DNA of 64,000 nucleotides from Flavobacterium hydrocarbonoxydans (GTDB lineage: Bacteria; Bacteroidota; Bacteroidia; Flavobacteriales; Flavobacteriaceae). Location of the stretch: assembly GCF_009789235.1 (NCBI RefSeq), contig NZ_WSTB01000001.1:620001-684000 (forward strand). The letters run 5' to 3'. Positions 19,643 through 53,456 of this stretch are shown piece by piece. Positions within the stretch are counted from its first letter, which is position 1, and each line of letters starts with the position of its first letter. The translations under genes and the position numbers were made by a program. Below the pieces are notes generated by a model, which was given only the letters and a program-made list of their open reading frames with translations, was not told the DNA's origin and made no database searches.

Positions 19643-19653
19643 AAATTATTCAG

Positions 19654-21534: not shown

Positions 21535-21539
21535 CTATT

Positions 21540-22805: not shown

Positions 22806-22843
22806 TGTAAAACCACGCTATTCATCAACTAAAAAAACAAATT

Positions 22844-23206
22844 ATGTATTATCCACTAGAAGCAAAATGGACTATCCTGCCCGGAAATGAGGCAAAAGCT
22901 ACAGAAGCTTTAAAACAACTTGCACTGGATGTGCAGGAAAATGAGCCAGAAACCATCATGTATATGGTACATGTACCCAACTTTAAAGAAAAAAGTCTGC
23001 CTACGCCTGCTCAGGGCGAAGTGATTTTCTGGGAAGTTTATGAAGATCAGGAAGGTTTTTTAAAACATGTAAATGGTCCCATATTTCAAAACTTTGTAAA
23101 AACCTATGGTGAGCTATTTTTAAGTGATTTTAGTACGCCGCCACAAGTTTTCATGACCACAGAGGTCTTAACTCTGATTGAAGGATTCAGCCGAAAAGTG
23201 TTGTAG
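22844..23206 (+). CDS. ABM-fold (antibiotic biosynthesis monooxygenase-like) protein
   Basis: A 120-residue ferredoxin-like alpha/beta barrel protein. It has a beta strand (Y-P-L-E-A-K-W-T-I), a helix with L-K-Q-L-A-L-D-V-Q-E-N-E-P-E-T, then I-M-Y-M-V-H-V, V-I-F-W-E-V-Y-E-D-Q-E-G-F-L-K-H-V and F-V-K-T-Y. This is the standard ABM/YgiN pattern of quinol- or aromatic-oxidising cofactor-less monooxygenases. In its operon it could oxygenate or bind the product of the flavoenzymes. It lacks a secretion signal. Confidence 0.72.
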   Translation: MYYPLEAKWTILPGNEAKATEALKQLALDVQENEPETIMYMVHVPNFKEKSLPTPAQGEVIFWEVYEDQEGFLKHVNGPIFQNFVKTYGELFLSDFSTPPQVFMTTEVLTLIEGFSRKVL

Positions 23207-23268
23207 AGCCTTCAAATAAAAAAAAATCCCTTCCAAAAACAAAACAAAATCAATCCAAAAAAAATAAA

Positions 23269-24294: not shown

Positions 24295-24325
24295 AAATCA
24301 TTAAAAAACAATTAAAAAATTTCAA

Positions 24326-25063
24326 ATGGAAAATAATAACACCCCACCCATGTTGCTTCACAGTACGTATTTTAATCTGGGGACAAGCAACACTTCCGGC
24401 ATTGTAGAAGCCTACATGGCTGAGGCCAGACAATATCTTTCCGAATCAATAGGAATGATTTCGTTCTGGATCGGTACAAGAGATGAGGATATGGTCAGAC
24501 CAGAGAATGATCTTCAATATGATATTGCCATGCATCAGCTTTTTAAAGATGAAGCTTCTTTTAATTTATACAATGCAAATGATTCTGCACACAATCAATT
24601 TGTAATTGATGTAAACAGATGGGTTCCGGGCACTACAAGACGTGTTTTAGATGCGTATGTTACGAATCTTATTTTTGGAGGAAACTCTTCAGAAGCACAA
24701 ACTATTGGCGCTGACGGAAACTTTCCGCAAAGTGTGATTCATAATTTATATTTCTCCCTTACGGATAAATCACCAGAAAACATTAAAAAATTCACAGACA
24801 TCTGCGTAGAATATCTATCAGGACATTCTGGAATTCAGGAATTTACAACTGGAGGATTAACCGATATCAAAAGAGATGTTTCGGTACGCAATTTTGAAGT
24901 TGTCGTTTCCATCATCTACGAAAGTAAAAAAGCGTATGATGATTATCTGACAAGTAAAAAACACGAGGATTTTTTTCCTGCCACTAAAGGGATGATTGCC
25001 AACACTTACATTTTTGATTCGTATTTAAAATATCAGTCAAAAGTATATTCTCTTACGAGATAG
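24326..25063 (+). CDS. Tandem Dabb-like (A/B barrel) protein
   Basis: A 245-residue protein that looks like two dimeric alpha/beta-barrel (Dabb) repeats. The first covers about 1-110 (M-I-S-F-W-I-G-T-R-D, ending Y-D-I-A-M-H-Q-L-F-K-D-E-A-S-F-N-L-Y-N-A-N-D-S-A-H). The second is about 130-235 (N-L-Y-F-S-L-T-D-K-S-P, then V-V-V-S-I-I-Y-E-S-K-K-A-Y-D-D-Y-L-T-S-K-K-H). Both end in the 'Y...H' pattern of the stress-responsive A/B barrel family, which includes polyketide cyclases such as olivetolic acid cyclase. A cyclase or product-shaping role is plausible but unproven. Confidence 0.6.
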   Translation: MENNNTPPMLLHSTYFNLGTSNTSGIVEAYMAEARQYLSESIGMISFWIGTRDEDMVRPENDLQYDIAMHQLFKDEASFNLYNANDSAHNQFVIDVNRWVPGTTRRVLDAYVTNLIFGGNSSEAQTIGADGNFPQSVIHNLYFSLTDKSPENIKKFTDICVEYLSGHSGIQEFTTGGLTDIKRDVSVRNFEVVVSIIYESKKAYDDYLTSKKHEDFFPATKGMIANTYIFDSYLKYQSKVYSLTR

Positions 25064-25109
25064 TTATTCCTTTTTAAAACAAAAAAATAATCCAAAAAAA
25101 CCAAAGATC

Positions 25110-26570
25110 ATGATAGAAACAGCTATACAGGAATTAGTTCGTGAACTAAGCGGCTATGTGCTGCAGCCTGGAGATTCAGACTATGAAGAAGTAATACGAA
25201 TTGATAACGGACGAATTCAGTTCAGGCCCCGCTTAATTATTTTCCCGGCAGTAATCGACGATGTAAAACTGGGATTAAAATTTGCCATCACCACTAATCT
25301 TCCTTTTTCGATAAAAGGCGGTGGCCATAGCGCTGCAGGTTATTGTCTTAATGAAGGAGGCGTGGTAATCGCCATGAAAAATTTAAACCGAATTACTTTC
25401 GATCAAAAAAAAGAAACCGTTACCGCAGAAATGGGTGTAATCTGGTATGATGTATATAAATTTATGCAGGCTACGAATACCGGTCTTATTCCTGTTGGCG
25501 GTGGCTGCCCTACTGTTGCGCCTCCAGGTTTTATGCTGGGTGGCGGATACAGTTTTGTTTCGCGTTCGTACGGAATGAGCATCGATAATCTGGAAAGTCT
25601 AAAAATCGTAACTCCGGATGGAGAACTACGACATATTGGTGTAAACAGTACAGCTGCAGAAGATATAGATCTTTTCTGGGCTTGCTGCGGTGGCGGTGGC
25701 GGAAACTTTGGTATTGTAGTCGAAATGGAAATGAGAGTTCGTACGCCATTAAGTAAAAAAATGCTGGTGGGGCAAATTCGCTATCCATTAGAAATGGCAG
25801 AAGATGTCCTGGGCTATTATAATGACTGGGTAGAAACGGTACCGGACGCCATGGCTGTTTATGGTTTTATGGGCAATCAAAAAGACCTTATCGATAAAAC
25901 CACTAATGTAAAAGTGTTAGGTTTAACTCCCGTTTTTAATGGCGATGGTGCAGAAGGTATCGATTTGCTTCAGGGACTTCTAAAGCTAAAACCTATCAAT
26001 GCCGATTTGTTTAATATGACGCTTCCAGACTGGGAATTTTATAACGGTTACACCACAAGAGTCGCCGGTAGAAGTTCGTACATACGCTCAACGGTTCTTC
26101 CGAAAAACGGAATGAATAATGACGTTGCTAAGGTTATTATCGAGTCTATGAGCAAAGCTCCTTCGGCTGAAAGTTTTGCCGTTTGGACACATGCCGGTGG
26201 TGCTATCGAAAATGTTGCTGCAGACGCTACTGCTTATGTACATAGAAACAGTCGTTTTGTTCCGGAAATAAAGGCAATCTGGGATTTAGACAAACCTGGA
26301 GACACTCTTAAAAATGTAGAATGGGCCTATGAATTTTTCGAAAGATTATCAAATGCAGGAAATGCTACCGGAGCTTACGTTAACTACATAGATCCCTTAC
26401 AGCATAACTGGACGGAACAGTATTACGGAAGTAATTACAAACGTCTTTTGGAAATCAAAAAAAGAGTCGATCCTAATAACTTTTTTAACTTTCAGCAAAG
26501 TGTAGGTTCTACTTTCAATCCTACAAAAGAGCTGACAGATATCAGTCCTATAAACCGCACCCGAGTATAA
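25110..26570 (+). CDS. BBE-type FAD-linked oxidoreductase with bicovalent FAD residues
   Basis: A 486-residue PCMH/berberine-bridge-type flavoenzyme. His73 in K-G-G-G-H-S-A-A-G and Cys133 in G-G-G-C-P-T-V-A-P-P-G-F-M-L-G-G-G are at the positions that bind FAD through 8-alpha-His and 6-S-Cys in bicovalent enzymes. The G-N-F-G-I-V block and the C-terminal BBE motif (Y-Y-G-S-N-Y-K-R-L-L-E-I-K-K-R-V-D-P-N-N-F-F) are intact. Such enzymes oxidise alcohols, sugars or close rings in natural-product pathways. It is the last gene of cluster A; a strong hairpin follows. Confidence 0.85.
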   Translation: MIETAIQELVRELSGYVLQPGDSDYEEVIRIDNGRIQFRPRLIIFPAVIDDVKLGLKFAITTNLPFSIKGGGHSAAGYCLNEGGVVIAMKNLNRITFDQKKETVTAEMGVIWYDVYKFMQATNTGLIPVGGGCPTVAPPGFMLGGGYSFVSRSYGMSIDNLESLKIVTPDGELRHIGVNSTAAEDIDLFWACCGGGGGNFGIVVEMEMRVRTPLSKKMLVGQIRYPLEMAEDVLGYYNDWVETVPDAMAVYGFMGNQKDLIDKTTNVKVLGLTPVFNGDGAEGIDLLQGLLKLKPINADLFNMTLPDWEFYNGYTTRVAGRSSYIRSTVLPKNGMNNDVAKVIIESMSKAPSAESFAVWTHAGGAIENVAADATAYVHRNSRFVPEIKAIWDLDKPGDTLKNVEWAYEFFERLSNAGNATGAYVNYIDPLQHNWTEQYYGSNYKRLLEIKKRVDPNNFFNFQQSVGSTFNPTKELTDISPINRTRV

Positions 26571-40492: not shown

Positions 40493-40876
40493 ATGAAAAT
40501 ACGTTTACACATAATTATCATAATTCTAACGCTTGGCTTCTTTATGTTGCCAACTTCGAGTTATGCGTGTGGGACTAAAACCGAAAAATCTTGTTGCAAA
40601 AAAGAAACAACAAAGAAATCTGAAAAGAAATCTGAAAAGAAAGACTGTTGTAAAAATAAAGACTCAAAAGACAAACACAATAGTTGCGGCGGAAAATGCG
40701 GACACTCAAATTGCACACCTTCAACATCTGTAAATTTCAGCATAATTTCATTTTACGAAATTAATTTTAAAAATAATTCTTTTGATTTTTCAGAAGAAAA
40801 ATCAAAATTTTATCATTCAAAAACCTTTATTTCTTCGGGTTTTCATTCCATTTGGCTCATTCCTAAAATAGCCTAA
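40493..40876 (+). CDS. Secreted Cys/Lys-rich protein, probable metal binder
   Basis: A 127-residue protein. A hydrophobic signal peptide (residues 4-20) ends near S-S-Y-A. The next 50 residues are Lys- and Cys-rich, with two CC pairs (S-C-C-K-K, D-C-C-K-N) and a C-G-G-K-C-G-H-S-N-C cluster, while the C-terminal 50 residues are ordinary. I recognise no family. The Cys/His content and the downstream copper genes on the same strand suggest that it binds copper in the periplasm. Confidence 0.6.
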   Translation: MKIRLHIIIIILTLGFFMLPTSSYACGTKTEKSCCKKETTKKSEKKSEKKDCCKNKDSKDKHNSCGGKCGHSNCTPSTSVNFSIISFYEINFKNNSFDFSEEKSKFYHSKTFISSGFHSIWLIPKIA

Positions 40877-40968
40877 ACATTTTTTTTGACAGCCATAAGT
40901 CTGTCTTCTCGAAAGCAAATTCTTTGCTCACAAAATTATTATTTAGCAAAAATTAAAATTTTATTACA

Positions 40969-41826
40969 ATGAAACTAATATCAAAAATATGGGTAGCAAT
41001 CACGGTATTGTTATCATTCACATCTTGCGAGGCACAAATTAAAAATGAAAAAACTGAAACAGTAAAAATTTATGGAAACTGTGGGATGTGTGAAAAAAGA
41101 ATTGAAAAAGCAGGAAATATAAATAACATAGCCAAAGTAGATTGGGATGTAGATACAAAAATGGCGACTATAACTTATGATAGTAAAAAAACCAATCAAG
41201 ATGCAATTTTAAAAAGCATTGCTTTATCAGGGCACGATAGCGATACATTTCTTGCTCCAAACGAAGCTTATTCTAAACTACCGAGTTGTTGCCAATACAA
41301 CAGAATTGCAAAAGTTCCTGTGAAAGTAAATACAGTTGCTAGCGATACTATATCAGCAAATTCTAAAGTGGATATGACCAATCATACTACTGCCGAAAAC
41401 CAACTAAAAGCAGTTTTTGATAATTATTTTGCTGTAAAAGATGCGTTAGTAAAAACAGACGGAAACACAGCATCTGCAAAAGCTACAGCATTACTTTCGG
41501 CAATCAACGCTGTCAAAATGGAAACTTTAAAAACAGAAGAACACAATGTTTGGATGAAAGTTTTAAAAGACACAAAAGAAGATGCTGAACATATTTCAGG
41601 CACCAAAGATGCAAAACACCAAAGAGATCATTTTGATACACTTTCAAAAAACATCTATGAATTAATCAAGGTTTCTAAACAAGAAACGCCAACGTATTAT
41701 CAATTTTGCCCAATGGCAAACAACGGAAAAGGTGCAAATTGGTTAAGTAAAGAGGATGTGGTTAAAAATCCATACTATGGTTCTATGATGTTAAGTTGCG
41801 GTAAAGTAACAGAAACAATCAAATAA
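40969..41826 (+). CDS. HMA-DUF3347 copper-binding protein
   Basis: A 285-residue envelope protein with a signal or lipoprotein sequence (S-F-T-S-C-E-A-Q). Residues 30-95 are a heavy-metal-associated domain with G-N-C-G-M-C-E-K-R-I-E, the CxxC copper site. Residues 130-280 are a DUF3347 domain: L-K-A-V-F-D-N-Y-F-A-V-K-D-A-L, and the C-terminal Y-Q-F-C-P-M-A-N..N-P-Y-Y-G-S-M-M-L-S-C-G motif related to CusB-type tails. The likely role is periplasmic copper capture and delivery to the oxidase downstream. A terminator hairpin lies between it and the oxidase. Confidence 0.85.
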   Translation: MKLISKIWVAITVLLSFTSCEAQIKNEKTETVKIYGNCGMCEKRIEKAGNINNIAKVDWDVDTKMATITYDSKKTNQDAILKSIALSGHDSDTFLAPNEAYSKLPSCCQYNRIAKVPVKVNTVASDTISANSKVDMTNHTTAENQLKAVFDNYFAVKDALVKTDGNTASAKATALLSAINAVKMETLKTEEHNVWMKVLKDTKEDAEHISGTKDAKHQRDHFDTLSKNIYELIKVSKQETPTYYQFCPMANNGKGANWLSKEDVVKNPYYGSMMLSCGKVTETIK

Positions 41827-41835
41827 ATTTAATTT

Positions 41836-41865
41836 GGCGAAGTCCAAAAAGGCTTCGCCTTTTTA
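41836..41865 (+). terminator. Terminator hairpin within the copper operon
   Basis: GGCGAAG (41836-41842) pairs with CTTCGCC (41853-41859), followed by TTTTT. It lies 10 bases after the DUF3347 gene stop and may reduce read-through to the oxidase. Confidence 0.8.
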
Positions 41866-41889
41866 ATCCAATTAATTGAAACTATCAAT

Positions 41890-44142
41890 ATGAAAAATAA
41901 AAAAATGAAAAACATATCAATTTTGCCTGCTGCAATATTGATATTGTTTATTTCTCAATCCATTTTCGCACAAAAAATTGTTCGTTACGATTTATATGTG
42001 CGAGATACAATCGTAACTTTTGGAGATAAACCTAAACACGCCATAGCAGTAAATGGACAAATCCCAATGCCAACACTAACATTTACCGAAGGCGATATTG
42101 CCGAAATTTATGTACATAATGAGTTAAAAGAAAGTACCTCTTTGCATTGGCACGGTTTATTTTTGCCAAATAAAGAAGATGGCGTGCCTAATTTGACACA
42201 AATGCCAATTGAACCCAACACTACTCACAAATATACATTTCCTATTATTCAACACGGAACACATTGGTATCACAGCCATTCAGGAATGCAAGAACAAATA
42301 GGTATGTATGGGAATTTTATAATGCTCAAAAAACCAACTGATCCAACCTTTAGAAAAGGAATTGACGATTTGCCGAGCGTTCCAATAGTTTTGAGCGAAT
42401 GGACAGATGCAAACCCTGATAATGTACACCGAATGCTACACAACGCAACAGATTGGTTTGCAATTCAAAAAGGTACAACACAAAGTTATTCCGAAGCAAT
42501 TCAGCAAGGTCATTTCAAAACTAAAGTTAACAACGAATGGAAACGAATGAACGCAATGGATGTAAGCGATGTATATTACAATAAATTTTTAATTAATGGC
42601 AAAAATGAAAGTCAGCTTTCGCAGTTCAAAGGTGGTGACAAAGTGCGTTTACGAATTTCAAACGGTGGTGCATCAACTTATTTTTGGCTTAATTATGCAG
42701 CCGGAAAAATTACTGTCGTTGCCAACGATGGTAACGATGTAGAACCTGTCGAAGTTGATAGATTAATTGTAGCCGTTTCCGAAACCTACGATATTGTTGT
42801 AACCATTCCAGCCGATAAAACCGCTTACGAATTTTTAGTAACTTCCGAAGACCGCACAAAATCTGCATCATTATATTTGGGCGATGGCATCAAACAGCTT
42901 AATTCTACCCTACCAAAATTAAAATATTTTGAAGGTATGAAAATGATGAACGATATGATGAAGATGAACGGAGACCTTGACGATATGGGAATGAGTATGT
43001 CCTACAATCAAATGGATATGAATGTAGTAATGTATCCAGAAATTACAGGCGAAGCAAAACCCAAAAGCGACAAAATGGGCGTTATAAAAATGACGGAAAA
43101 CGATTACAACAGCAATAAACTTTCAGACATTGTAACCCTAAATTACGCAATGCTAAAATCACCTTTCAAAACAAATCTTCCAAAAGATGCACCAATCAGA
43201 GAATTAAAATTTGAACTTACAGGAAATATGAACCGCTATGTTTGGAGTTTAGACAATAAAGTAGTTTCAGAAACTGATAAAATCCTAATCAAAAAAGGCG
43301 AAAATGTACGCATCACAATCTACAATGGTTCTATGATGCGCCACCCAATGCACTTACATGGACACGATTTTAGAATAATTAATGGACAAGGCGACTACGC
43401 ACCACTTAAAAATATCATTGACATTATGCCAATGGAAACCGATGTTTTAGAATTCAACGCGAATGTTGAAGGCGATTGGTTTTTTCATTGTCATATTTTG
43501 TACCACATGATGGCAGGAATGGGCAGAGTTTTTACCTATGAAAACCAAGCACCTAATCCATTGATACCAAACCCCAAATTAGCACAACGCAAATTGTTTG
43601 CCGATGATAGAAAATTTCATTTAATGGCAGAAAATGATTTTGCTACTAATGGTAATGATGGTAGCGCAATGTATCAAAATACACGTTGGAGTATTGGTAC
43701 TGAATGGAGATTAGGATACAATGATATGCACGGTTATGAAATCGAAACACACATTGGTAGATATATTGGTAAGATGCAATGGCTAATGCCTTTTATTGGA
43801 TTTGATTGGAGATACAGAAAAATGGAAGATAACGAAATGGAAAAGAACCTTTTTAACCAAACAAATACCAAAGACAAACGCTCTGTTTTTAGTCTTGGAT
43901 TAGAATACACCTTCCCAATGCTCATAAAGGCACAAGCCGAAGTGTTTACTGATGGAAATGTGCGTTTACAATTTGAACGAATGGACATTCCAGTTTCAAA
44001 ACGTCTTCGAATGAACTTAATGTGGAATACCGACAAAGAATATATGGCAGGATTGCGATATATTGTCAAAAGAAACTTTGGAATAACCACACATTATGAC
44101 AGTGATATGGGAATAGGTTTTGGAGTAAGTTTGAATTATTAA
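41890..44142 (+). CDS. Multicopper oxidase (CopA-like) fused to a CopB-like barrel domain
   Basis: A 750-residue protein with an N-terminal signal. Residues 30-570 are a three-cupredoxin multicopper oxidase with all four copper-binding blocks: H-W-H-G, H-W-Y-H-S-H-S-G, H-P-M-H-L-H-G-H and H-C-H-I-L-Y-H-M-M-A-G-M. A Met-rich loop (M-K-M-M-N-D-M-M-K-M-N-G-D...M-S-M-S) resembles cuprous-oxidase loops. Residues 600-750 have alternating barrel strands ending G-V-S-L-N-Y, like the outer-membrane protein CopB. It should oxidise Cu(I) in the periplasm, with the barrel part perhaps anchoring it to the outer membrane. Confidence 0.88.
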   Translation: MKNKKMKNISILPAAILILFISQSIFAQKIVRYDLYVRDTIVTFGDKPKHAIAVNGQIPMPTLTFTEGDIAEIYVHNELKESTSLHWHGLFLPNKEDGVPNLTQMPIEPNTTHKYTFPIIQHGTHWYHSHSGMQEQIGMYGNFIMLKKPTDPTFRKGIDDLPSVPIVLSEWTDANPDNVHRMLHNATDWFAIQKGTTQSYSEAIQQGHFKTKVNNEWKRMNAMDVSDVYYNKFLINGKNESQLSQFKGGDKVRLRISNGGASTYFWLNYAAGKITVVANDGNDVEPVEVDRLIVAVSETYDIVVTIPADKTAYEFLVTSEDRTKSASLYLGDGIKQLNSTLPKLKYFEGMKMMNDMMKMNGDLDDMGMSMSYNQMDMNVVMYPEITGEAKPKSDKMGVIKMTENDYNSNKLSDIVTLNYAMLKSPFKTNLPKDAPIRELKFELTGNMNRYVWSLDNKVVSETDKILIKKGENVRITIYNGSMMRHPMHLHGHDFRIINGQGDYAPLKNIIDIMPMETDVLEFNANVEGDWFFHCHILYHMMAGMGRVFTYENQAPNPLIPNPKLAQRKLFADDRKFHLMAENDFATNGNDGSAMYQNTRWSIGTEWRLGYNDMHGYEIETHIGRYIGKMQWLMPFIGFDWRYRKMEDNEMEKNLFNQTNTKDKRSVFSLGLEYTFPMLIKAQAEVFTDGNVRLQFERMDIPVSKRLRMNLMWNTDKEYMAGLRYIVKRNFGITTHYDSDMGIGFGVSLNY

Positions 44143-44364: not shown

Positions 44365-45204
44365 TTAAACCCTAAAAAAATTAGCCGCTATCCAGCGTTC
44401 TTTCCAATTGCTCCAAATTGGTTCAAACTGCATATCATTTTTTGTGTAATGGGTTTGAAATAAATCTTTTGCAGTAGCAATGTCGTTATGTTCTTTCAAT
44501 AAAGATAAAAAATCATATTGCTCTTTGTGAAGATCATAAATTGACAATTTGAACTGGTGTCTCAAGACCACACTATAACTTTCTTTTTCAAGAGGCAAAG
44601 CGGGATTTTTTCCATTTTTAAATTCGGAATAGTACTTCCGGACCGGAAATTTAAATGTAAATAAAGAAAATATTGGAACTATTTTTAATTGCTCCTCAGG
44701 AGTCTCAAAGGTCGCTAATTGGTAATCCTCTTCTGCTTTGGTATCAAAAAGGACTCCAATGGCATATTCAAATCGGGCCAGCTCAATGATAAAATCAATC
44801 CAGTCTTCTTTTACTGTTTCTTCTGCATCGGGTCTGTTGTTTTCGAGATAGTCAGCAAAATGAGCTCCTAAAAAAGACAAATTATAATGATGCGATGGTC
44901 TTGAAGCGAGATAATCATCGGCGAAAGCACAAAAAATAGCTTCGCCTAAAGCATATTCTAAAGCACTAAATTGCTGCGACATGCAATTTCGCAATCGTGC
45001 AATATAACTCCGTTGGTAAATTCCCAAATGTTCCTGAGCGCTAAGTTTTTCCGAATGGCAAATGACGTCTTCAATAGAAGCCGCATTGGTTGCATTCGAA
45101 AGCAAATCATTAGGATTCACACCCGTTTGCTGGTAAGGATCGAGCAAAAGCTGCTGCATCCATTGCTGAAAATCTTTCAATGGTATTTTGACCGTTTTGT
45201 GCAT
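44365..45204 (-). CDS. DUF2063 (BufC/HvfC-like) partner of the MNIO enzyme
   Basis: A 279-residue protein of the 'putative DNA-binding' DUF2063 family. In bufferin and related RiPP systems this family acts as the substrate-recruiting partner of DUF692 oxidases. Seen: F-Q-Q-W-M-Q-Q-L-L-L at the N-terminus, the helical block L-S-A-Q-E-H-L-G-I-Y-Q-R-S-Y-I-A-R-L-R, then F-S-A-L-E-Y-A-L-G, A-D-D-Y-L-A-S-R-P-S-H and E-L-A-R-F-E-Y-A-I. The C-terminal part is the winged-helix-like peptide-binding region. It follows the MNIO gene by 8 bases and is last in the operon. Confidence 0.87.
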   Translation of the reverse strand: MHKTVKIPLKDFQQWMQQLLLDPYQQTGVNPNDLLSNATNAASIEDVICHSEKLSAQEHLGIYQRSYIARLRNCMSQQFSALEYALGEAIFCAFADDYLASRPSHHYNLSFLGAHFADYLENNRPDAEETVKEDWIDFIIELARFEYAIGVLFDTKAEEDYQLATFETPEEQLKIVPIFSLFTFKFPVRKYYSEFKNGKNPALPLEKESYSVVLRHQFKLSIYDLHKEQYDFLSLLKEHNDIATAKDLFQTHYTKNDMQFEPIWSNWKERWIAANFFRV

Positions 45205-45212
45205 CTTTAGCT

Positions 45213-46130
45213 TTATAAAAATTGATTGACAGCAAACAGATTTAATGGGTTTGAAACCTGTTCTTTATCCATAGAGTGAACTTCTTTTTCAGCCCCAGTA
45301 AAGGTAGCATCCATATATTTTTTTGATTTAAGTAATTCCGAATGATACACATCAAAGGCTGGAATATTACCATCCCATTCTAATAAAACAGAAGCTTCAT
45401 TTGCCAGTTGATACGCCATTTGAAACAATTTCCAAACCTGATTATTCACTTCCCTATCGTGTGTATCGATAATGTAATTGCCACAATTCTGATGGCCGGC
45501 CAAGTGCATTTGTACCACTCTATCATGTGGAATTCCATTGATGTAGGTTACAGGATCAAAATCATTATTAAAAGAAGAAACGTACACATTGTTTACATCA
45601 AGCAACAATCCACAACCGGTTTCTTCGGTCATGATTCGTAAAAAGTCCCATTCCGGAAGAGTTGAATTATTAAACGCTGCGTATGTACTTGGATTTTCTA
45701 CAATCAGCGGTCGTTCTAAATAGTCCTGAACCTGTCGGATTCGGTTGCAAACATGTTTTAAAGACTCATCATTTAGCGGAAGCGGAAGCAAATCGTGCGA
45801 ATTGGTTGTCAAAACGCCCGTCCAGCACAAATGATCGCTAATCCAGGCTGGTTTTACTTCGCCTGCCAGCTGTTTTAAACTTTTGAGGTAATCAAAATTT
45901 AAGGGATCAGTGCTTCCTATAGAAAGCGATACCCCGTGCATGACCACGGGATATTGCTCTGCTATTTGCTGTAAAATATATCTGGGTCTTCCATGCGAAT
46001 CCATAAAATTCTCAGAAATCACCTCAAACCAATCTACGGCTGGTTTATTTTGAAGAATGTGTTCAAAATGCTGACTTCTAAGTCCTAAACCCAATCCTAA
46101 ATTGGGCAAACCCAATCTAGTTTCCATCAT
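45213..46130 (-). CDS. DUF692 multinuclear non-heme iron oxidase (MNIO)
   Basis: A 305-residue TIM-barrel enzyme of the DUF692 family. These use two or three iron ions to oxidise Cys (or other) residues of ribosomal peptides, as MbnB, TglH and BufB do. Metal-ligand blocks are visible: H-G-V-S-L-S-I-G-S, I-S-D-H-L-C-W-T-G, V-E-N-P-S-T-Y, L-L-L-D-V-N-N-V-Y-V, M-H-L-A-G-H, D-T-H-D-R-E-V and L-L-E-W-D-G-N-I-P. I chose the ATG at 46130, which overlaps the Cys-rich gene by 14 bases. An ATG further upstream at 46175 would overlap it more. Its likely substrate is the Cys-rich protein just upstream. Confidence 0.9.
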   Translation of the reverse strand: MMETRLGLPNLGLGLGLRSQHFEHILQNKPAVDWFEVISENFMDSHGRPRYILQQIAEQYPVVMHGVSLSIGSTDPLNFDYLKSLKQLAGEVKPAWISDHLCWTGVLTTNSHDLLPLPLNDESLKHVCNRIRQVQDYLERPLIVENPSTYAAFNNSTLPEWDFLRIMTEETGCGLLLDVNNVYVSSFNNDFDPVTYINGIPHDRVVQMHLAGHQNCGNYIIDTHDREVNNQVWKLFQMAYQLANEASVLLEWDGNIPAFDVYHSELLKSKKYMDATFTGAEKEVHSMDKEQVSNPLNLFAVNQFL

Positions 46131-46704
46131 TTTTGCAATCACAATTCGAAAGCGTTTCAGGCAATTTTTGGGCACTTTCCTGCTCCATTTTCAAAACTCT
46201 CTGATTGGCAGCTGCCTTTCTATCAGTCGGATTGTTTATGTACGAACACGATCTTGAACCGCTTTGTCCGCAAGAAGAATAATCTACACCTGTAGTGCCG
46301 CGAACAGTATTTACGTAATCCTCGCTTGGTCCGTATTGTTGCGGAGCCTCGCCAAAAGGTTCTCCATTTTGATTTCTTTTTTCTTCAAAACGTATTCTTG
46401 CCAATTGCCAAACGCTCAATCCTTTATTAGGTCCTTGCGCCATAAAACGCGAAGACAGTATAGGCACACCGCAACTTCCCTGATAACGGCATTCATTTTC
46501 GCCTGGATGGCAAAGTTCTTCGGTAGTTCCAAAAATTCCACAGCCTCCTTGTCCTTTACAGGCATTTAAAGTGTGACAGGGATGACCAACAGCCGTTGAG
46601 CAATCGCCTTTGCCTGCACAATCATTATTTCCTGAGTATCCCGCATTTTTACATGAATTAAGCCCCATACATACATGAAGCTCTTTGGTTGTTAATTCTG
46701 ACAT
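46117..46704 (-). CDS. Leaderless Cys-rich protein with repeated CX5C motifs, candidate MNIO substrate
   Basis: A 195-residue protein with 14 Cys. Ten lie in residues 12-78, in CX5C spacing at 12/18, 29/35, 43/49, 49/55 and 72/78 (for example C-K-G-Q-G-G-C, C-A-G-K-G-D-C). Two more are in S-S-C-G-Q-S-G-S-R-S-C and two in N-C-D-C-K. The L-N-A-C-K-G-Q-G-G-C style is like BufA2-type bufferins, whose Cys are converted by DUF692 enzymes to thiooxazole-type groups that chelate copper. Unlike bufferins it has no signal peptide and carries a 115-residue C-terminal region (V-W-Q-L-A-R-I-R-F-E-E-K-R). The MNIO gene overlaps its end by 14 bases. The assignment as precursor is by context. Confidence 0.72.
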   Translation of the reverse strand: MSELTTKELHVCMGLNSCKNAGYSGNNDCAGKGDCSTAVGHPCHTLNACKGQGGCGIFGTTEELCHPGENECRYQGSCGVPILSSRFMAQGPNKGLSVWQLARIRFEEKRNQNGEPFGEAPQQYGPSEDYVNTVRGTTGVDYSSCGQSGSRSCSYINNPTDRKAAANQRVLKMEQESAQKLPETLSNCDCKNDGN

Positions 46705-46721
46705 GTTATGTGTTTTTTAAA

Positions 46722-48236
46722 TTAATGATGGTGTGTATAAGGAGTTCCTGGTACTTTTGGCATATCGGCTTCAATAGTATAATCCAATCCTACGTCAGGT
46801 AAAGACGGGAAATAATTTTCGCTTTTAATGGCCCATCCCCAATTTGTCGGATCGGCTTTAGCCAATTGATCAACAAGGTTCATAATTTGTGCTTTAGGTC
46901 TTAGGAAACTTTTTTCAAATGAAAAAGGTTCAAATGTCAAAGCCCCTTTATAAGCCTTATTATCTTTGGAATACGTATATTGATTAATTTGATTTCCTAC
47001 TCCGCTCAAAAGCCAGATCATCGATTTATGAATTCCAAAAATGAATAAATCGTATTGGGTACTTTCGTCTTTATAGTAACAGGCTTCTATCATTAAAAGA
47101 ATATAAGCAAAAACCGCATTCCCCAATTCTGAAGCAAGTGCCAGTGCCTGATTCCCCGATGCTACGTAATCTGCAGTTCTTGGATTAGCATCTGTATCAT
47201 ACACAAAATAGCTGAAAAAATCGTCTAAGCCCTGAATATTACGAAACTTTTCCTGATAGTAACCACCAAGACTATAAGCTTCCAAAAATTTGGCAAAATG
47301 GGCGATTTCTTTTCCTGCATCATCATAATCACCTTCCCAAAACGTTACTTTGCCATCCACAACTTCCATGGGTACTGGCATTTTATCTTCACCCCAGATT
47401 AAAGTGTGTTGTTTGAATTTGCTTCTTCCCTCTCCCTGATCGATAATACGTTCCAGAGCATCAATCGCTGAGTGGGCATCATATACTCCAACAAGTCCGC
47501 CGCTATCCTCTCCGTTAGCAAACTGAGGATTGTGCTCCCTGTCATAATGCACGGTATTCATCGAATTTTGAGAATAATACGGTCTTGGACGTTCCGGACT
47601 ATCCGGTGGAAGCAATTGTGGTCTATAGTCATAAGGCCCTGGGAAATCCTCGGCTACACACTTAATAATCATTTCATACAAACGCCCAATGGTTTGGTAA
47701 TCGATGGTGTCCTGTAATAGTTTATCTGCATAAGGATCTACAAAAGGTTCAGGACTTTCTATTTGCAGAAAAGTAGTCAGCTGTTTGAGTGACAATTTTG
47801 CTGCATTAATTTGAAATTCAGGAATATGACCGTCTAATTGTGTTGGAAATGAAAGTCCTTTTCCAATCCCCATCAGATCTGGTGCAGTTTGACAAACAGC
47901 TTGTTTTACATTGCATGCGAGTGCCAGATGCAGCATTTCTTCAATCACAACACTCATAATTAATGCCGCTGATTTATTCGAATAAACCAGCACATCCAGT
48001 TTGAGTTCCTGCGTTAATTCATCAATTTCAGTTGCAGTTCGTTCGCCGGATTGTGAAAGCTGCGCATGAATTTTGGCATACAATTTATCCTGATCCTGAG
48101 CTCTGTTTATCGAATAATAGGTAGATAAATACGTTGGAATTGTTGCAAGCTCCAGCGCAATTGCCTGCTGCATTACTTCTTTGATATTCTCTTTTGTTAC
48201 CGCGTTCGAAAGCGTAAAAAGTTTTTTGGTTTTCAT
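46722..48236 (-). CDS. VioB-like ferritin-fold protein, cluster B
   Basis: A 504-residue protein whose N-terminal 150 residues are a PF12902/VioB-type ferritin-like domain: A-I-A-L-E-L-A-T-I-P-T-Y-L (ligand Glu) and S-V-V-I-E-E-M-L-H-L-A-L-A-C-N (Glu plus ExxH). The rest (Y-S-Q-N-S-M-N-T-V-H-Y-D-R-E-H, then helices to a Y-T-H-H-H end) is unassigned. It resembles the 421-residue cluster A protein in its helices and the Q-G-E-G block. By analogy with VioB it could couple imines made by the amine-oxidase-like enzyme encoded just upstream. It is 17 bases before the Cys-rich gene. Confidence 0.75.
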   Translation of the reverse strand: MKTKKLFTLSNAVTKENIKEVMQQAIALELATIPTYLSTYYSINRAQDQDKLYAKIHAQLSQSGERTATEIDELTQELKLDVLVYSNKSAALIMSVVIEEMLHLALACNVKQAVCQTAPDLMGIGKGLSFPTQLDGHIPEFQINAAKLSLKQLTTFLQIESPEPFVDPYADKLLQDTIDYQTIGRLYEMIIKCVAEDFPGPYDYRPQLLPPDSPERPRPYYSQNSMNTVHYDREHNPQFANGEDSGGLVGVYDAHSAIDALERIIDQGEGRSKFKQHTLIWGEDKMPVPMEVVDGKVTFWEGDYDDAGKEIAHFAKFLEAYSLGGYYQEKFRNIQGLDDFFSYFVYDTDANPRTADYVASGNQALALASELGNAVFAYILLMIEACYYKDESTQYDLFIFGIHKSMIWLLSGVGNQINQYTYSKDNKAYKGALTFEPFSFEKSFLRPKAQIMNLVDQLAKADPTNWGWAIKSENYFPSLPDVGLDYTIEADMPKVPGTPYTHHH

Positions 48237-48260
48237 ATGGTTAAGTTTGTTTTTAGACTA

Positions 48261-50255
48261 TTATTCCGGACTGATAAATGGATAATATTTTTCATCTATG
48301 ATAGGTTCGATTCCAAAAAAATCATTCAGAACAGATTCGGCAGTACAAAAAGCACCTTCTACCCAGGCCTGATCATTAGAATAGGTTTCTCCAACAATAA
48401 AAATCTCGCAATCTGTTTTCGGAACGAGCTGTGATGGTTTTCTGATTTTTCTTTGTACATCGCCCAGATTATAGTGTGATTTATAGGCATGATAGCCTGC
48501 ATTAAAAGGAGGCAGTGACCAGTCCATATATTTTGTTTCAAGAGGTTCCGGTACATAAGAATAATCAGCCTGCGGACCAAAATGTAAGGCTGCCAATTGC
48601 GAACGAAGCATTTTTACCATAACAGGTGTAGCTTCTCTTGGCCCTTCGAGTGGCTGGCAATCTCTGGATTCCGGAATTTCACGTGTTGCATTTGGACCAA
48701 GTTCTAAAGCTTTCCAGAAGGTTGCATACTGAATATCATCATAACTGGCTAGAATACCATAGACTTTTTTCCCTTTTCCATCTCTGGCATTATCGCCAAA
48801 ATAGACTACCTGACGGATAGGCATGTCTGTAATACTTGGGCCAATGGTATCCAATTCCGCAACAGTTGAGATTTGTTTTTCCTCTTTAAAAGTCAGACGC
48901 TCCTGAATGGCATTTTCTACAGCAGCTATAAAACTTGCTTTGTCATTAAACGGATTGCCTATAATAACGGGACTTTTAGCCGATTCTATTTTTTTAAGAT
49001 AATCAGAAGGGAAACCTTCTTTTTTCAGTTTTGCTATACCTTCCAATGTTAAAAAGTAACTTGTTAGTTTGGCAGGATACGTAGGGCTTCCATCTAAAGT
49101 TTCTCTCCACCAGGGAGTGGTGAAAAACATACCCACTTTATAAGAAGGTTCCATCAGTACTGACTCTAAATAAAGCTGTACTTTTTCATGATTTAATACA
49201 TCTACGCCTTCCTTGTCGCTGTATCTGGATGCCTGAGCGACTAATTCTATGGCTGCTCTGGGCATGGCAAGAAATGCAGCATCGCATATTTTATTTTCTG
49301 CCAGTTTATCCGGATCCTGACGCGTTGCGGTGGTAAAATAAACGCCTTGCTTGGTATGCAAAATAGAACGCAATCTAGTATTTGGAAAATAATTCAGCGT
49401 GATTCCTTTTTGTTTGGCTAATTTTTCTACTTCTTCAAATAAGCTGTCAAATAAGCTGGAATAGCCTTTTATCAAAGTTTTGTATTCGGTACCGGGAGTA
49501 AATTCATCATTAACATTAAACGACTGGGCACTATTGCTGTTTACTACATTTGAACTGTAGCCATTTCCATCTGCTAAATAACTAAACCCCTCTTGTCCAA
49601 GCACATCAAAACCCAGATTCCAGTAGCCAATCTCTTTTAATAAGTCTCCTTTTTTATAAACTGAACTATCCGGCATGTCTATTTTGATTTTGCCTTCTTC
49701 ATAAAATTTACACCATTCTCTTCTTGTAAATGGTTTTGAATTATCTGTAATCGCTACCGATTGTATTGTTGTAAATCCATCGTCTGGCGGAGCATCCTGA
49801 GCGTAATTGTTTGCAAAATAAGGTGCTGGCTGGTTAGATGTAACATCAGAGATATACATGTTTTTAGAACGCAAAGACATTAAAGGATCTGCCGATTCAT
49901 TAAACGGAACTGAATCTTTCTTTAAATCCAGTTTTTCTATAGCTTTTGTCACTAAACGATGTCCTGGTCCTTTAGGAGTGCCATCCCAATACAAATAGCG
50001 CATACCACCCAATTCCAGATACGAATTGTCTTTGTCATCCTTATAATGCCAGGTACAAACGCGCGCGCCTGGCTCTCTGGTACCTGATTTTTTTTTGGAA
50101 AAATCATATTTTCCCCAGTCATAAAGCTCTAATACATCGCCTTTAACGAGCATTTTTTCGTTTTTTTCCAGTTTGGATTTTCCTTCAAGCAATCTCCAGG
50201 CTGTATAAAGTCCCGCTGCTCCTGCTCCAAAAATGGAATATGTTTTTTTAGTCAT
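48261..50255 (-). CDS. L-amino-acid-oxidase-like flavoenzyme
   Basis: A 664-residue FAD amine oxidase. Residues 5-18 are the dinucleotide loop (S-I-F-G-A-G-A-A-G-L-Y-T-A-W). L-E-L-G-G-M-R-Y follows at about 78, the signature that marks L-amino-acid oxidases. The C-terminus has the second FAD region (I-F-I-V-G-E-T-Y-S-N-D-Q-A-W-V-E-G-A). Such enzymes make an imino/keto acid and H2O2 from an amino acid; VioA of violacein synthesis is a relative. It lacks a signal peptide and is thus cytosolic. The neighbours suggest that its imino product goes to the VioB-like protein or, as keto acid, to the decarboxylase upstream. The amino-acid substrate is unknown. Confidence 0.8.
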   Translation of the reverse strand: MTKKTYSIFGAGAAGLYTAWRLLEGKSKLEKNEKMLVKGDVLELYDWGKYDFSKKKSGTREPGARVCTWHYKDDKDNSYLELGGMRYLYWDGTPKGPGHRLVTKAIEKLDLKKDSVPFNESADPLMSLRSKNMYISDVTSNQPAPYFANNYAQDAPPDDGFTTIQSVAITDNSKPFTRREWCKFYEEGKIKIDMPDSSVYKKGDLLKEIGYWNLGFDVLGQEGFSYLADGNGYSSNVVNSNSAQSFNVNDEFTPGTEYKTLIKGYSSLFDSLFEEVEKLAKQKGITLNYFPNTRLRSILHTKQGVYFTTATRQDPDKLAENKICDAAFLAMPRAAIELVAQASRYSDKEGVDVLNHEKVQLYLESVLMEPSYKVGMFFTTPWWRETLDGSPTYPAKLTSYFLTLEGIAKLKKEGFPSDYLKKIESAKSPVIIGNPFNDKASFIAAVENAIQERLTFKEEKQISTVAELDTIGPSITDMPIRQVVYFGDNARDGKGKKVYGILASYDDIQYATFWKALELGPNATREIPESRDCQPLEGPREATPVMVKMLRSQLAALHFGPQADYSYVPEPLETKYMDWSLPPFNAGYHAYKSHYNLGDVQRKIRKPSQLVPKTDCEIFIVGETYSNDQAWVEGAFCTAESVLNDFFGIEPIIDEKYYPFISPE

Positions 50256-50300
50256 GATCGTATGTTTTTAAAATTTTCATTCGGTTTTTTCGTAGCCTTT

Positions 50301-52019
50301 TTATTCATTACCTAACCTAGACATTTGCTGTGCCAGATCTTTTTGTGGAATTACAATTTCTACCAGAGTCGGAAGATTTGTTTTTTTCTTAAGTTTAAGA
50401 AGCACTTCGTTTAACTCTGTAACAGTTTCAGCACGATAGCTGTTTGCTCCAAATGCTTTGGCCAATGCCTGATAATCCCATTTTGGAAGAATATCAAAAG
50501 CATCGAATTTATGTGAAGGTCCAGCCTTAAATGAGTCTATATCGACATACACCTGTTCTATGGCATATACTCCGTTACTCATCACAAAAATTACAGAGTT
50601 GATGTTGTATTTTACAAGAGTTGAGAGTGACTGCGCTATCATCATAAACCCACCATCTCCGGCTACGGTCCAGGCTTGTTTGCCACTCCCTAACTGAGCA
50701 CCTGATGCCGCACCGGTTTCAAAACCGATACACTGCCAGGCAGCCGAAGAAATATAGGCGTTCTTCGATAATCCGTACATATTGGTAGCCACGTACATAG
50801 ACGAACTTACACCAAAAGTCATCACAATATCATCCAGCATTTTCTGCTTTTTCAGAAAAAACATGGTATGTTCAAAAAAACGGTTAAATGTTATTACTTC
50901 GGGAGTTAAATCATATTTAGGATCGGAGTTGGATCTCCAGGGTTCCGGAAATTTCGGTTGAGCCGGCGCGATGGTTTTTAAAGGATATCCATCTGCTTTT
51001 TTAAAACGTTCTGTTAAGGCTTCAATAAAGTCTCTTAAAGTTACCTTATTGTAGGTAAAATAACCCACCCGCATTTCCTGCGTAGTCGCCTGAATCATAT
51101 CCTGAAATTTATTTTCTACCAGCCATAAATAATCATCGGTAATGATCGTTCCTAAAGATAAAATACAATCAGAATCCTCAACCACGCTGATCACTTCTGG
51201 TATAGAAGCCTGATCAGAATAGGTTCCTATAAATTTATCGCCTTTCTCGTCCAGAACCGTTTTTCCCAGTGAAGTTGTGGTGTACAACATCCCGCTTGCT
51301 TTAATAAGCTCTTCTAATTGTTTGGTTAAGTTATGTCGCAAAAGTTCTACTCCTGCCAAAATCAAAGGCGATTTTGCCTGACTAATCTGACTCCAGGCCT
51401 GAGAAACTGCATTTTCGAGTGCCGCTGTTTCACTTTTTAGTATTTCAGGTTCCAGTTTTTTATTCGAAGGTTTCGGACAAGGTTCACCCCAAACCTCTTT
51501 ATAACACGCTATATACACCGGTCGTTGATGTGTAAGCGCAGCTATAATTAAGTTATCTATTTTTTCCGGAGCTCCCGCTGAAGTGCTCAGGGTCTCCGCA
51601 GCAACAGTTACTCTTTCGTAAACTTCCTGATCTGCGTTGAGATTACCTGTTGAGTGATGGTAAAGTACATTATACATACTCCCAATTTGTCGTGCATCGG
51701 CACCGGGAGTAGCACTAATGACCACAACAGGACTGCGTTCTACATACGCTCCTGCAATAGCATTTAATGCGCTAAAAGTACTCACGCCATACTGCAAAGA
51801 CACCGCCGCCAAACCTCGTGTTCGGGCATAAGCATCTGCAGCATAAGAAGCGTCCAGTTCGTTTGAAGTTCCAATGGTTTCTATTCCATCAAAGTCTTCC
51901 AAAGCTTGTGTAAAATGTTTTACATAGTCGCCCGGAATTTGAAAAACCTCGGTAACATTTAATTGTTTCAGCCGGGTAAGCAGATAATCTGCCACTGTAA
52001 ATTGTTTTGTAGCTTTCAT
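50301..52019 (-). CDS. TPP-dependent 2-keto-acid decarboxylase
   Basis: A 572-residue enzyme of the pyruvate/indolepyruvate decarboxylase class. The N-terminal E-V-F-Q-I-P-G-D-Y and S-N-E-L-D-A-S-Y-A-A-D-A-Y-A-R supply the TPP-activating Glu. L-Y-H-H-S-T-G carries the decarboxylase HH pair. V-A-G-D-G-G-F-M-M...S-N-G-V-Y-A-I-E is the TPP-Mg motif. It should convert an amino-acid-derived keto acid (pyruvate, phenyl- or indolepyruvate type) to the aldehyde and CO2. The gene lies upstream of the amine oxidase that could supply that keto acid, gap 45 bases. Confidence 0.85.
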   Translation of the reverse strand: MKATKQFTVADYLLTRLKQLNVTEVFQIPGDYVKHFTQALEDFDGIETIGTSNELDASYAADAYARTRGLAAVSLQYGVSTFSALNAIAGAYVERSPVVVISATPGADARQIGSMYNVLYHHSTGNLNADQEVYERVTVAAETLSTSAGAPEKIDNLIIAALTHQRPVYIACYKEVWGEPCPKPSNKKLEPEILKSETAALENAVSQAWSQISQAKSPLILAGVELLRHNLTKQLEELIKASGMLYTTTSLGKTVLDEKGDKFIGTYSDQASIPEVISVVEDSDCILSLGTIITDDYLWLVENKFQDMIQATTQEMRVGYFTYNKVTLRDFIEALTERFKKADGYPLKTIAPAQPKFPEPWRSNSDPKYDLTPEVITFNRFFEHTMFFLKKQKMLDDIVMTFGVSSSMYVATNMYGLSKNAYISSAAWQCIGFETGAASGAQLGSGKQAWTVAGDGGFMMIAQSLSTLVKYNINSVIFVMSNGVYAIEQVYVDIDSFKAGPSHKFDAFDILPKWDYQALAKAFGANSYRAETVTELNEVLLKLKKKTNLPTLVEIVIPQKDLAQQMSRLGNE

Positions 52020-52100
52020 TTTTTTGAAATTCTAAATTAGGAGCCGTATTTATTTTCGGCTATAAATACCTTCAATTATTTTTTTTTGAAGCTATTTCTG

Positions 52101-53456
52101 TTAAGCAACTCTTATACGCACCTGCAGACTACCAATATTATCCGCTAATCCAGCTCCGTACTGCGCATTTAGATCATCATTGATACATAATTGTAAGGCA
52201 CCACTCTGACCTGCAGGAGTTACCACTGGTCCATTTCCAATAAAAAATGGAGGATTCGTCCCCACTTGCCCGATAAGCGCACCCATATTTACATTTTGAA
52301 CAGGATAGCCTGATTGTGTTACGATAATACCGGGACATCCATTTGCATCATACAGATTACCATTATTAGTTTGCGGATCTGCTGTCCATAGACCTGATTC
52401 GTAACTTATAATACTCGAATTTCCGGGTTGTACCGTAACTCCTGTGTCCTGCCATGGCTGAGTTGCATTGACCGGAACAAACGTTTCTACTAGTTGCAGT
52501 GTATTGGCATCGATATGCGAAAACTGAGTTGGTAAACCATTGATGAGGAACTGCAAAACAATATTTTGAATGTATTGCAACTGAACTTTTCCATTACTCA
52601 GCGTTTCAACATACCAGGTAGTGTTCATTGAAAGTACTTTCCCAAAAGAATTTTCAAAATTAATATTGCTTACTGCACCACCTTCATTTGTAGTACTAAC
52701 CGTAATACTTGAATAACTGGTAACTGTTACACCATTGGCTTTCAATGTATCCAATTGTTGCGTCAAATAGGTGGATGGATCAATAATTGTAGGATCCGTA
52801 AAAGGTAATTTAGTTCTGTCCGCTGTTGGAAAAACCGGATTTCCTGTACCCGTAACAACCGGTCCTCCCGTCATCAAAACGGAAACACCATGTGGCACCG
52901 AAATTTGTTTGTTATATTGTGTTGCAGCATTTTGCACAGGAATCGGATTGGTAACGGGTACAGTACCCGGTCCGTAAGGTCCTTCAACCTGATTTTGAAT
53001 AACATGATAGAGCCAGGTACCATTTTCGGCATGAATCAGGGTGTTTTGAATAGGCTGTGCTCCGTTTGGATCGGCGTTATCAGCTATATACACTCTTTGT
53101 TCGTAAAATAAAACCGAGCTTGCCTGTGTATATTGCCCTTCACGATTGGGTGCACCGCCCGCTATGGCTGCAAATGAAATTTCTTCAAAATAAGGAAAAT
53201 TTTTAGTGATGTAACCGTTTGGAGTATCTGCCTGAGGCAAAGGCATAACGTTATAACCTGTAGCATCAGCTCCCGTGGGACTGTTCCAGGTACCAATAAA
53301 ATTATTTAAAAGCCCGAGGTTAGCATTTCCAATAACTGGTGGCTGATTAGTGGTGGCTACAAGTGGTGTTGATATGTCTGGAATTACAGCTACTGTAGCT
53401 GCTTGTTTAGCCAGATAAGGGCATTTTTGCTGTTGTAAATCGGTTGAATTTTCCAT
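52101..53456 (-). CDS. Beta-barrel protein of a heme-binding-like family, first gene of cluster B
   Basis: A 451-residue protein. After a 45-residue polar start (with C-P-Y-L-A) it has L-G-L-L-N-N-F-I-G-T-W-N-S-P, a G-T-W barrel opening, then S-V-P-H-G-V-S-V-L and W-Y-V-E-T-L-S-N-G-K-V-Q-L-Q-Y-I-Q-N-I-V-L. These blocks are shared in order with the cluster A protein at 23269. The C-terminal 120 residues are extra and Gly/Asn-rich, and include C-P-G-I and L-C-I-N-D-D. Heme or small-molecule binding is a fold-based guess. It is first in the minus-strand operon, with 81 bases to the decarboxylase gene. Confidence 0.6.
   Translation of the reverse strand: MENSTDLQQQKCPYLAKQAATVAVIPDISTPLVATTNQPPVIGNANLGLLNNFIGTWNSPTGADATGYNVMPLPQADTPNGYITKNFPYFEEISFAAIAGGAPNREGQYTQASSVLFYEQRVYIADNADPNGAQPIQNTLIHAENGTWLYHVIQNQVEGPYGPGTVPVTNPIPVQNAATQYNKQISVPHGVSVLMTGGPVVTGTGNPVFPTADRTKLPFTDPTIIDPSTYLTQQLDTLKANGVTVTSYSSITVSTTNEGGAVSNINFENSFGKVLSMNTTWYVETLSNGKVQLQYIQNIVLQFLINGLPTQFSHIDANTLQLVETFVPVNATQPWQDTGVTVQPGNSSIISYESGLWTADPQTNNGNLYDANGCPGIIVTQSGYPVQNVNMGALIGQVGTNPPFFIGNGPVVTPAGQSGALQLCINDDLNAQYGAGLADNIGSLQVRIRVA

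Follow-up and report, generated by a model that had tools for sequence, protein, structure and literature searches.

Within a 64,000-nucleotide stretch of the Flavobacterium hydrocarbonoxydans genome (assembly GCF_009789235.1, contig NZ_WSTB01000001.1, positions 620,001 to 684,000; hereafter the window), positions 44365-53456 hold seven genes that an original prediction, made from the sequence by a model, described as one operon. Family matches bear out its view that this operon joins an MNIO/DUF2063 pair and a probable Cys-rich substrate to an amino-acid oxidase and a decarboxylase. Searches of the accessible literature for MNIO or DUF692 together with ferritin, VioB or amino-acid oxidase, and for operons of the oxidase and decarboxylase, returned no description of this combination, in agreement with the original prediction, which knew of no such system. 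A single copper-transcriptome paper paired DUF692 with ferritin, and the papers matching oxidase and decarboxylase terms did not fit by title. We refer to the PF12902 ferritin-like protein as FerL, the Cys-rich protein as CysR, the thiamine pyrophosphate (TPP)-dependent 2-oxo-acid decarboxylase as KDC and the L-amino-acid-oxidase-like flavoprotein as LAAO; the FerL, CysR, MNIO and DUF2063 genes are called the quartet, and the KDC-LAAO pair unit 2. The linkage of the quartet, seen here and in loci well beyond this operon, is well supported. In order of transcription, the genes are as follows (bit scores are given with model cut-offs; PDB, Protein Data Bank).

52101-53456, minus strand: FMP-type heme-binding protein, first gene of the operon (NCBIfam heme_bind_FMP NF040572, 179.9 bits, cut-off 150)
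50301-52019, minus strand: KDC of the indolepyruvate/branched-chain type (three TPP domains over cut-off; nearest PDB entries 6vgs, 9msa and 2vbf)
48261-50255, minus strand: LAAO, FAD-dependent, 664 amino acids (PDB 7x7i, 511 bits; 7eih, 187 bits; 7eii, called L-Lys oxidase, 184 bits)
46722-48236, minus strand: FerL, 504 amino acids with putative diiron ligands (PF12902, 111 bits, cut-off 22.3)
46117-46704, minus strand: CysR, 195 amino acids with 14 Cys and a bufferin-2-like core, probable MNIO substrate (weak BufA2 match)
45213-46127, start possibly at 46130, minus strand: MNIO (DUF692, BufB-like), putative modifier of CysR (PF05114, 360 bits; NCBIfam MNIO_BufB NF050167, 357.8 bits, cut-off 310)
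44365-45204, minus strand: DUF2063 protein (HvfC/BufC-like, "PME-type 1"), MNIO partner and last gene of the operon (PF09836, 58.5 bits, cut-off 27.2)

Along the direction of transcription the seven open reading frames (ORFs) are spaced by 81, 45, 24 and 17 bases, an overlap of 11 or 14 bases and a final gap of 8 bases, which confirms the tightly packed, co-directional arrangement first described. The extent of the overlap depends on the MNIO start, as the MNIO ORF spans 45213-46175 and has in-frame ATGs at 46130 and 46127. The 644 bases that precede the first gene contain no match to a Bacteroidota-type promoter pattern. The LAAO scores 17 bits against the Pfam flavin amine oxidase family (cut-off 19.8) versus 511 bits against PDB 7x7i, and it is 91% identical to its counterpart in another Flavobacterium genome (G174; loci and genomes are cited by our L and G numbers). 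A role as an anti-phage defense system was also considered and dropped, since none of the seven proteins matched a PADLOC defense model at E 0.001. Convergent to the end of the operon, at 40493-44142, lies a set of copper-handling genes encoding a Cys-/Lys-rich protein with a signal-like N-terminus, an HMA/DUF3347 protein and a multicopper oxidase.

Searches with CysR, using either the protein itself or a profile, identified it in 9 of 199 Flavobacterium genomes and, with one weak match included, in 8 of 345 Bacteroidota genomes. Carriers also made up 5 of 101 genomes from the genus to which G166 belongs and 2 of 118 from the G320 family. We mapped 34 strong loci, 32 of them found by CysR and 2 by PF12902; a locus with a 31.9-bit CysR match and an MNIO gene nearby, and with no FerL gene nearby (L105), was left out of this set. 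All four quartet genes are found together in each of the 34 loci, with FerL and CysR adjacent or fused in every one; L128 is the one locus whose MNIO and DUF2063 genes are on the opposite strand from the rest of the quartet. The quartet furthermore stands without the other operon genes in at least six Bacteroidota families. The least biased of the searches was anchored on PF12902 alone. Among 149 genomes of the class, 5 were positive and yielded six genes, comprising four quartets and two genes beside GMC oxidoreductases (three and one when the window's own genome is set aside), and FerL thus belongs with the MNIO genes. CysR relatives were not found among plasmids; PF12902-type matches were present in 90 plasmid records, all of them less than 60% identical, and one of the 20 plasmid matches listed also names a GMC oxidoreductase.

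The tie between FerL and CysR is closest in four genomes in which they form a single polypeptide of 668-760 residues, namely Mucilaginibacter sp. E4BP6 (L071), Tahibacter aquaticus (L127), Lysobacteraceae bacterium 2PB (L128) and Undibacterium umbellatum (L129), with PF12902 over its cut-off in all four. The L128 fusion extends further, into a LecA-like domain that shares 53% identity with the C-terminal region of the window heme protein, and the neighboring heme protein of that locus carries its two domains in swapped order. This triple fusion and domain swap connect the heme protein with both FerL and CysR. The original prediction had set three MNIO-linked genes apart from four enzyme genes, a division that has to be redrawn since FerL sides with the MNIO genes, being adjacent or fused to CysR throughout the mapped set.

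Across an alignment of 19 FerL sequences, residues E29, E100, H103, E160, E269 and H313 never vary, and E310 is present in 18 of the 19. Two E/ExxH motifs in one protein constitute the ligand pattern of diiron proteins. Judged from these residues, FerL carries the ligand set for a dimetal site that is probably diiron. The AlphaFold model of FerL (mean pLDDT 81.8) aligns with the ferritin-like structure 3hl1 with a Z score of 22.8 and a root-mean-square deviation of 3.0 over 262 residues.

CysR belongs to no Pfam family, and over 29 matched residues it scores 22 bits against the BufA2 model, whose cut-off of 60 is not reached. Two unfused CysR homologues score similarly (22.1 and 19.7) and the fused homologues have no listed match. 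The core nonetheless contains six Cys that are invariant in all 9 fused and unfused homologues aligned, and it has N-x-C-x3-G-x-C and CxxxxxC repeats. The first Cys is at residue 12 and no signal-like N-terminus was detected. By a crude measure, hydropathy over 12-residue segments peaks at 0.63 within the first 40 residues, versus 2.2-3.0 in five neighboring window proteins with signal-like N-termini. In the accessible part of a survey of the MNIO landscape (PMC12452194), signal-less Cys-rich candidates are grouped as adjamnio-I, defined in its Table 2 by the absence of a signal peptide, a size of 122-293 amino acids, 8-21 Cys and a gene directly before that for MNIO. By these published limits on size, Cys content and position, CysR may be an adjamnio-I member. 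The same portions of the survey list adjamnio-I clusters with PME-type 2 partners, correlate signal peptides with DUF2063 (PME-type 1) partners and name MerC alone as a fusion partner for Buf2; in its main text the words ferritin, amino acid oxidase, amine oxid-, decarboxylase and peroxidase are all absent. All 7 partner proteins scanned exceed the PF09836 cut-off, which makes the quartet an exception to the correlation between signal peptide and DUF2063.

The first gene of the operon encodes what had been called a barrel binder. The barrel is retained and the assignment is now narrowed to a nitrobindin-fold heme binder with a C-terminal LecA-like domain, as judged from a model of modest confidence (mean pLDDT 64.4) for which Foldseek alone gave no usable match. 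With VIA-align, residues 41-324 match human nitrobindin (3ia8) with a Z score of 16.8 over 161 residues, and residues 324-451 match LecA (1l7l) over 101 residues at 23% identity, a match backed by several similar lectins further down the list. Since the protein scores only 57.7 bits against the FMP-type peroxidase model NF040571 (cut-off 300), we do not call it a peroxidase. A related heme gene is located directly downstream of LAAO in eight loci (Aquimarina, Tenacibaculum and others), and the one scanned among these, in L043, does pass the "peroxidase, FMP-type" model (498.7 bits, cut-off 300). Heme proteins in fact adjoin either unit, being next to LAAO in the L043-type loci and next to the quartet in L101, L106, L126 and L128; in addition, a DyP peroxidase is part of the L071 cluster. 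A second PF12902 locus at window positions 19211-26570 repeats the theme of flavin oxidase, ferritin-like protein and heme protein. Its genes encode a FAD-SLDH-like small protein, a GMC oxidoreductase, a PF12902 protein, an FMP heme-binding protein (273.8 bits, cut-off 150), a Dabb-domain protein and a berberine-bridge-type FAD oxidase, and it contains no MNIO or CysR match.

Rubrerythrin consists of a four-helix diiron domain with E/ExxH pairs and a C-terminal Cys-rich metal domain, and it reduces peroxide. It is the similar layout of the FerL-CysR pair that leads us to propose, tentatively and at somewhat short of an even chance, that a cytosolic bufferin-2-like domain is modified by MNIO and its DUF2063 partner and forms, together with a diiron ferritin-like domain, one rubrerythrin-like metalloprotein that would probably handle or use the peroxide from flavin oxidases. 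By analogy with bufferin biosynthesis, the DUF2063 protein would present the cytosolic CysR domain to MNIO, which would oxidize one or more of its conserved cysteines. The modified domain would then bind metal, probably copper as bufferins do, and would stay with FerL as one functional metalloprotein, a suggestion supported by their fusion in four genomes of different genera. FerL would hold two irons and the pair would, as in rubrerythrin, reduce or use hydrogen peroxide, with the modified and probably copper-binding domain serving as an electron relay or as a second metal site. Action on peroxide is suggested because the neighbors are hydrogen peroxide-releasing flavin oxidases (LAAO here, GMC oxidoreductases with PF12902 elsewhere) and heme peroxidase-type proteins. 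From what is known of its families, the LAAO of unit 2 would release hydrogen peroxide and KDC would turn the resulting keto acid into an aldehyde, while the nitrobindin-type, peroxidase-related heme protein may serve the same peroxide chemistry beside either unit. We infer both the modification of CysR and the chemistry of the quartet. A more specific form of this proposal, which is possible but doubtful, is that MNIO installs a post-translational and probably copper-binding cofactor in a cytosolic domain of a diiron, ferritin-like enzyme. The result would be a rubrerythrin-like peroxidase or oxygenase containing both iron and copper, and it would handle aldehydes derived from amino acids, or hydrogen peroxide, in concert with flavin oxidases and heme peroxidases.

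The same parts invite a storage role against Fenton chemistry, which is the main rival to the metalloprotein reading. Here FerL would store iron and modified CysR would bind cytosolic copper, so that the hydrogen peroxide released by LAAO finds no metal for Fenton chemistry; the heme protein would remove the peroxide and the quartet itself would be non-catalytic. Bufferins do bind excess copper according to the accessible part of PMC12452194, the quartet and LAAO co-occur, and the operon adjoins copper-handling genes in the window. However, none of the other mapped loci has a match to those copper genes, and the quartet often occurs without this LAAO. The FerL model also aligns with ferritin and Dps chains with Z scores of about 8-10, a level that is nevertheless within the chance range for helical bundles. 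The two ExxH motifs suit centers of the rubrerythrin or bacterioferritin type better than those of Dps. We consider such a metal-sequestering guard to be rather unlikely.

The LAAO is sporadic, being present in 6 of 296 Bacteroidota genomes with one of these a partial match of 43%. A scan of contigs with an LAAO alignment gave 175 relatives, of which we mapped the best 80; Flavobacterium contributed 21 of these loci. All seven genes occur in the same order in 9 of these 21 loci, each gene at 79-94% identity, and this order is therefore kept beyond chance. Three further Flavobacterium loci have six of the seven genes, the heme gene not being adjacent, and two have heme-KDC-LAAO only. In comparison, six flanking window genes (multicopper oxidase, HMA, small Cys-rich, 4HBT-like, YceI and cytochrome-like) had no match at E 1e-6 in 115 other mapped loci. 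A KDC match is positioned upstream of LAAO on the same strand in 67 of the 80 loci, which come from Bacteroidota, Pseudomonadota, Acidobacteriota and other records, and the KDC-LAAO pair is therefore a widespread unit by itself. It is far more widespread than the quartet and constitutes a separate unit. LAAO relatives were not found among viral contigs. In five Flavobacterium loci (L024, L025, L026, L028 and L060) the pair adjoins genes that, named by eye, resemble phage-tail sheath and tube genes like those of contractile injection systems.

The two units have been joined in at least three arrangements, once with a non-orthologous oxidase and decarboxylase. Flavobacterium has the order heme-KDC-LAAO-quartet. 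In L071 the order is FerL/CysR fusion-MNIO-DUF2063-KDC-LAAO, followed by an ORF without assignment and the DyP peroxidase; the unassigned ORF (L071:12075-13541, 488 residues) has no Pfam family that we could find. Directly upstream of the L103 quartet is a different LAAO, 23-34% identical to that of the window, and a KDC of 47% identity. Relatives of this L103 pair (91% and 86%) are present in L182, from the same genus, where LuxR-like, unassigned and weakly DyP-like ORFs lie between them and the quartet.

A number of observations weigh against a joint peroxide-linked system. The conserved gene set includes no electron-donor gene, the BufA2 score of CysR is far below its cut-off, the LecA match of the heme protein (Z 7.9) is borderline, and support for DyP-like proteins next to the quartet is weak in both L180 and L182 (no Pfam match and 18.2 bits versus a cut-off of 27.5). 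The units also separate freely. Within the stretch mapped, 7 of the 21 Flavobacterium loci have KDC-LAAO alone, one of which (L025) ends just past LAAO. L022 keeps heme-KDC-LAAO intact with the quartet surviving only as remnants (28- and 85-residue matches to FerL and DUF2063 at L022:12055-12475), and L113 keeps the quartet with only pieces of the heme and LAAO genes. Outside Flavobacterium, where 50 of 59 LAAO loci were tested (leaving out L036, L048, L050, L059, L069, L073, L075, L079 and L080, with L059 being the same genome as the separately searched G099), CysR was found in only 8 of the 50 LAAO genomes, or 9 when L071 is counted. In favor of a joint system, by contrast, is co-occurrence without linkage in Mucilaginibacter: among 100 genomes CysR occurs in 11, LAAO in 14 and both in 8, giving a Fisher p of 2e-6 in a test that ignores genome size and ancestry. 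On the other side, 3 of the 11 CysR carriers lack LAAO and 6 of the 14 LAAO carriers lack a CysR profile match; one of these six (G659) is the L071 genome, whose fused domain the profile missed, and counting it as a double carrier changes p to 2e-7. Seven of the resulting nine double carriers fall in one 11-row clade of a gyrB tree that contains 28 of 30 chosen genomes (the fragments from G593 and G599 were left out and the negatives were hand-picked). The Fisher p consequently overstates the co-occurrence, as double carriers share ancestry. Label changes on the tree number 5 for double carriers versus a shuffled mean of 4.9, with 13 non-carriers left out. In the single-contig genomes G672 and G677, which have both genes, CysR and LAAO are more than 1 million bases apart.

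Such data could be read as two unrelated units that were transferred and inserted together by chance to give a seven-gene operon without joint function. Each unit is indeed widespread alone, each has been lost independently in Flavobacterium as L022 and L113 attest, and shared ancestry weakens the co-occurrence test. Yet repeated rejoining in at least three arrangements, one of them with the non-orthologous LAAO and KDC of L103/L182, is hard to obtain by chance, and heme proteins of the operon's type are found beside either unit; we regard chance assembly as improbable. The original prediction held that a joint system would fail if related genomes keep its parts apart, and the outcome is divided. 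The quartet and KDC-LAAO do occur alone, even within Flavobacterium and with deletion remnants, and on the other side the halves rejoin in another order or with other enzymes and co-occur unlinked in Mucilaginibacter.

A further alternative is biosynthesis of a small molecule or adduct in the style of violacein, in which a VioB-like FerL and the MNIO product would use an imine, keto acid or aldehyde supplied by LAAO and KDC. Some evidence points in this direction, as in several lineages the quartet is again found joined to oxidase and decarboxylase genes, and the PF12902 family is reported near lodA-like amino-acid-oxidase genes in fungi in the accessible part of PMC4417212. PF12902 is also related to a part of VioB, as one of the four fused homologues (L127, Tahibacter) matches the VioB model TIGR04492 over 101 residues with 25.3 bits against a cut-off of 1250. 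However, the window FerL has no match to this model at E 0.1, many genomes have the quartet without LAAO and KDC genes, and the fusions found involve CysR and LecA-like domains and not LAAO or KDC. With FerL failing the VioB model and LAAO often absent where the quartet is present, VioB-like biosynthesis is less likely, and we assign it a low probability. The description of FerL as a VioB-like ferritin fold holds at the level of the PF12902 domain and not beyond it, and nothing was found in support of an amino-acid-derived adduct on a protein or of VioB-type imine dimerization. A VioB split between the heme protein and FerL was considered as well and dropped, since neither window protein matches TIGR04492 at E 0.1.

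MNIO enzymes are so far known for the modification of peptide natural products and of exported copper-binding bufferins. If the metalloprotein reading is correct, then the substrate of this MNIO is either a partner or an integral domain of a diiron ferritin-like protein. The chemistry of MNIO enzymes would in that case reach as far as the making of a cofactor inside an enzyme, and they would make more than secreted metal-binding peptides. The quartet would also be an exception to a published correlation between signal peptides and the type of partner protein.

For completeness, we compare the operon with known systems. It shares with Bufferins 2 (BufA2-BufB-BufC) the order of precursor, MNIO and DUF2063 genes, an MNIO that passes the BufB model, a DUF2063 partner over the PF09836 cut-off, and a CysR core in which six Cys are invariant and N-x-C-x3-G-x-C repeats occur; it differs in that CysR has no signal peptide, is under the BufA2 cut-off and is paired with or fused to FerL. 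Bufferins 2 further have thiooxazole-modified Cys and bind copper. With 195 amino acids, 14 Cys, no signal peptide and a position directly before MNIO, CysR is within the adjamnio-I limits given in the accessible part of PMC12452194, but its partner is a DUF2063 protein. The heme protein resembles FMP-type heme-binding proteins and nitrobindins in passing NF040572 and having the nitrobindin fold, and it differs from FMP-type peroxidases in failing NF040571 and carrying an extra LecA-like domain. As in violacein synthesis by VioA and VioB, a flavin amino-acid oxidase gene is located near a gene for a PF12902-type domain, although the window FerL is without a VioB match and the fused L127 protein is far under the cut-off. 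The proposed metalloprotein parallels rubrerythrin in that FerL residues E29, E100xxH103, E269, E310 and H313 provide two E/ExxH pairs for a putative diiron site. In contrast to rubrerythrin, FerL is from another family, with only PF12902 found in Pfam at E 0.1, and CysR has CxxxxxC repeats and an MNIO in place of a rubredoxin site.

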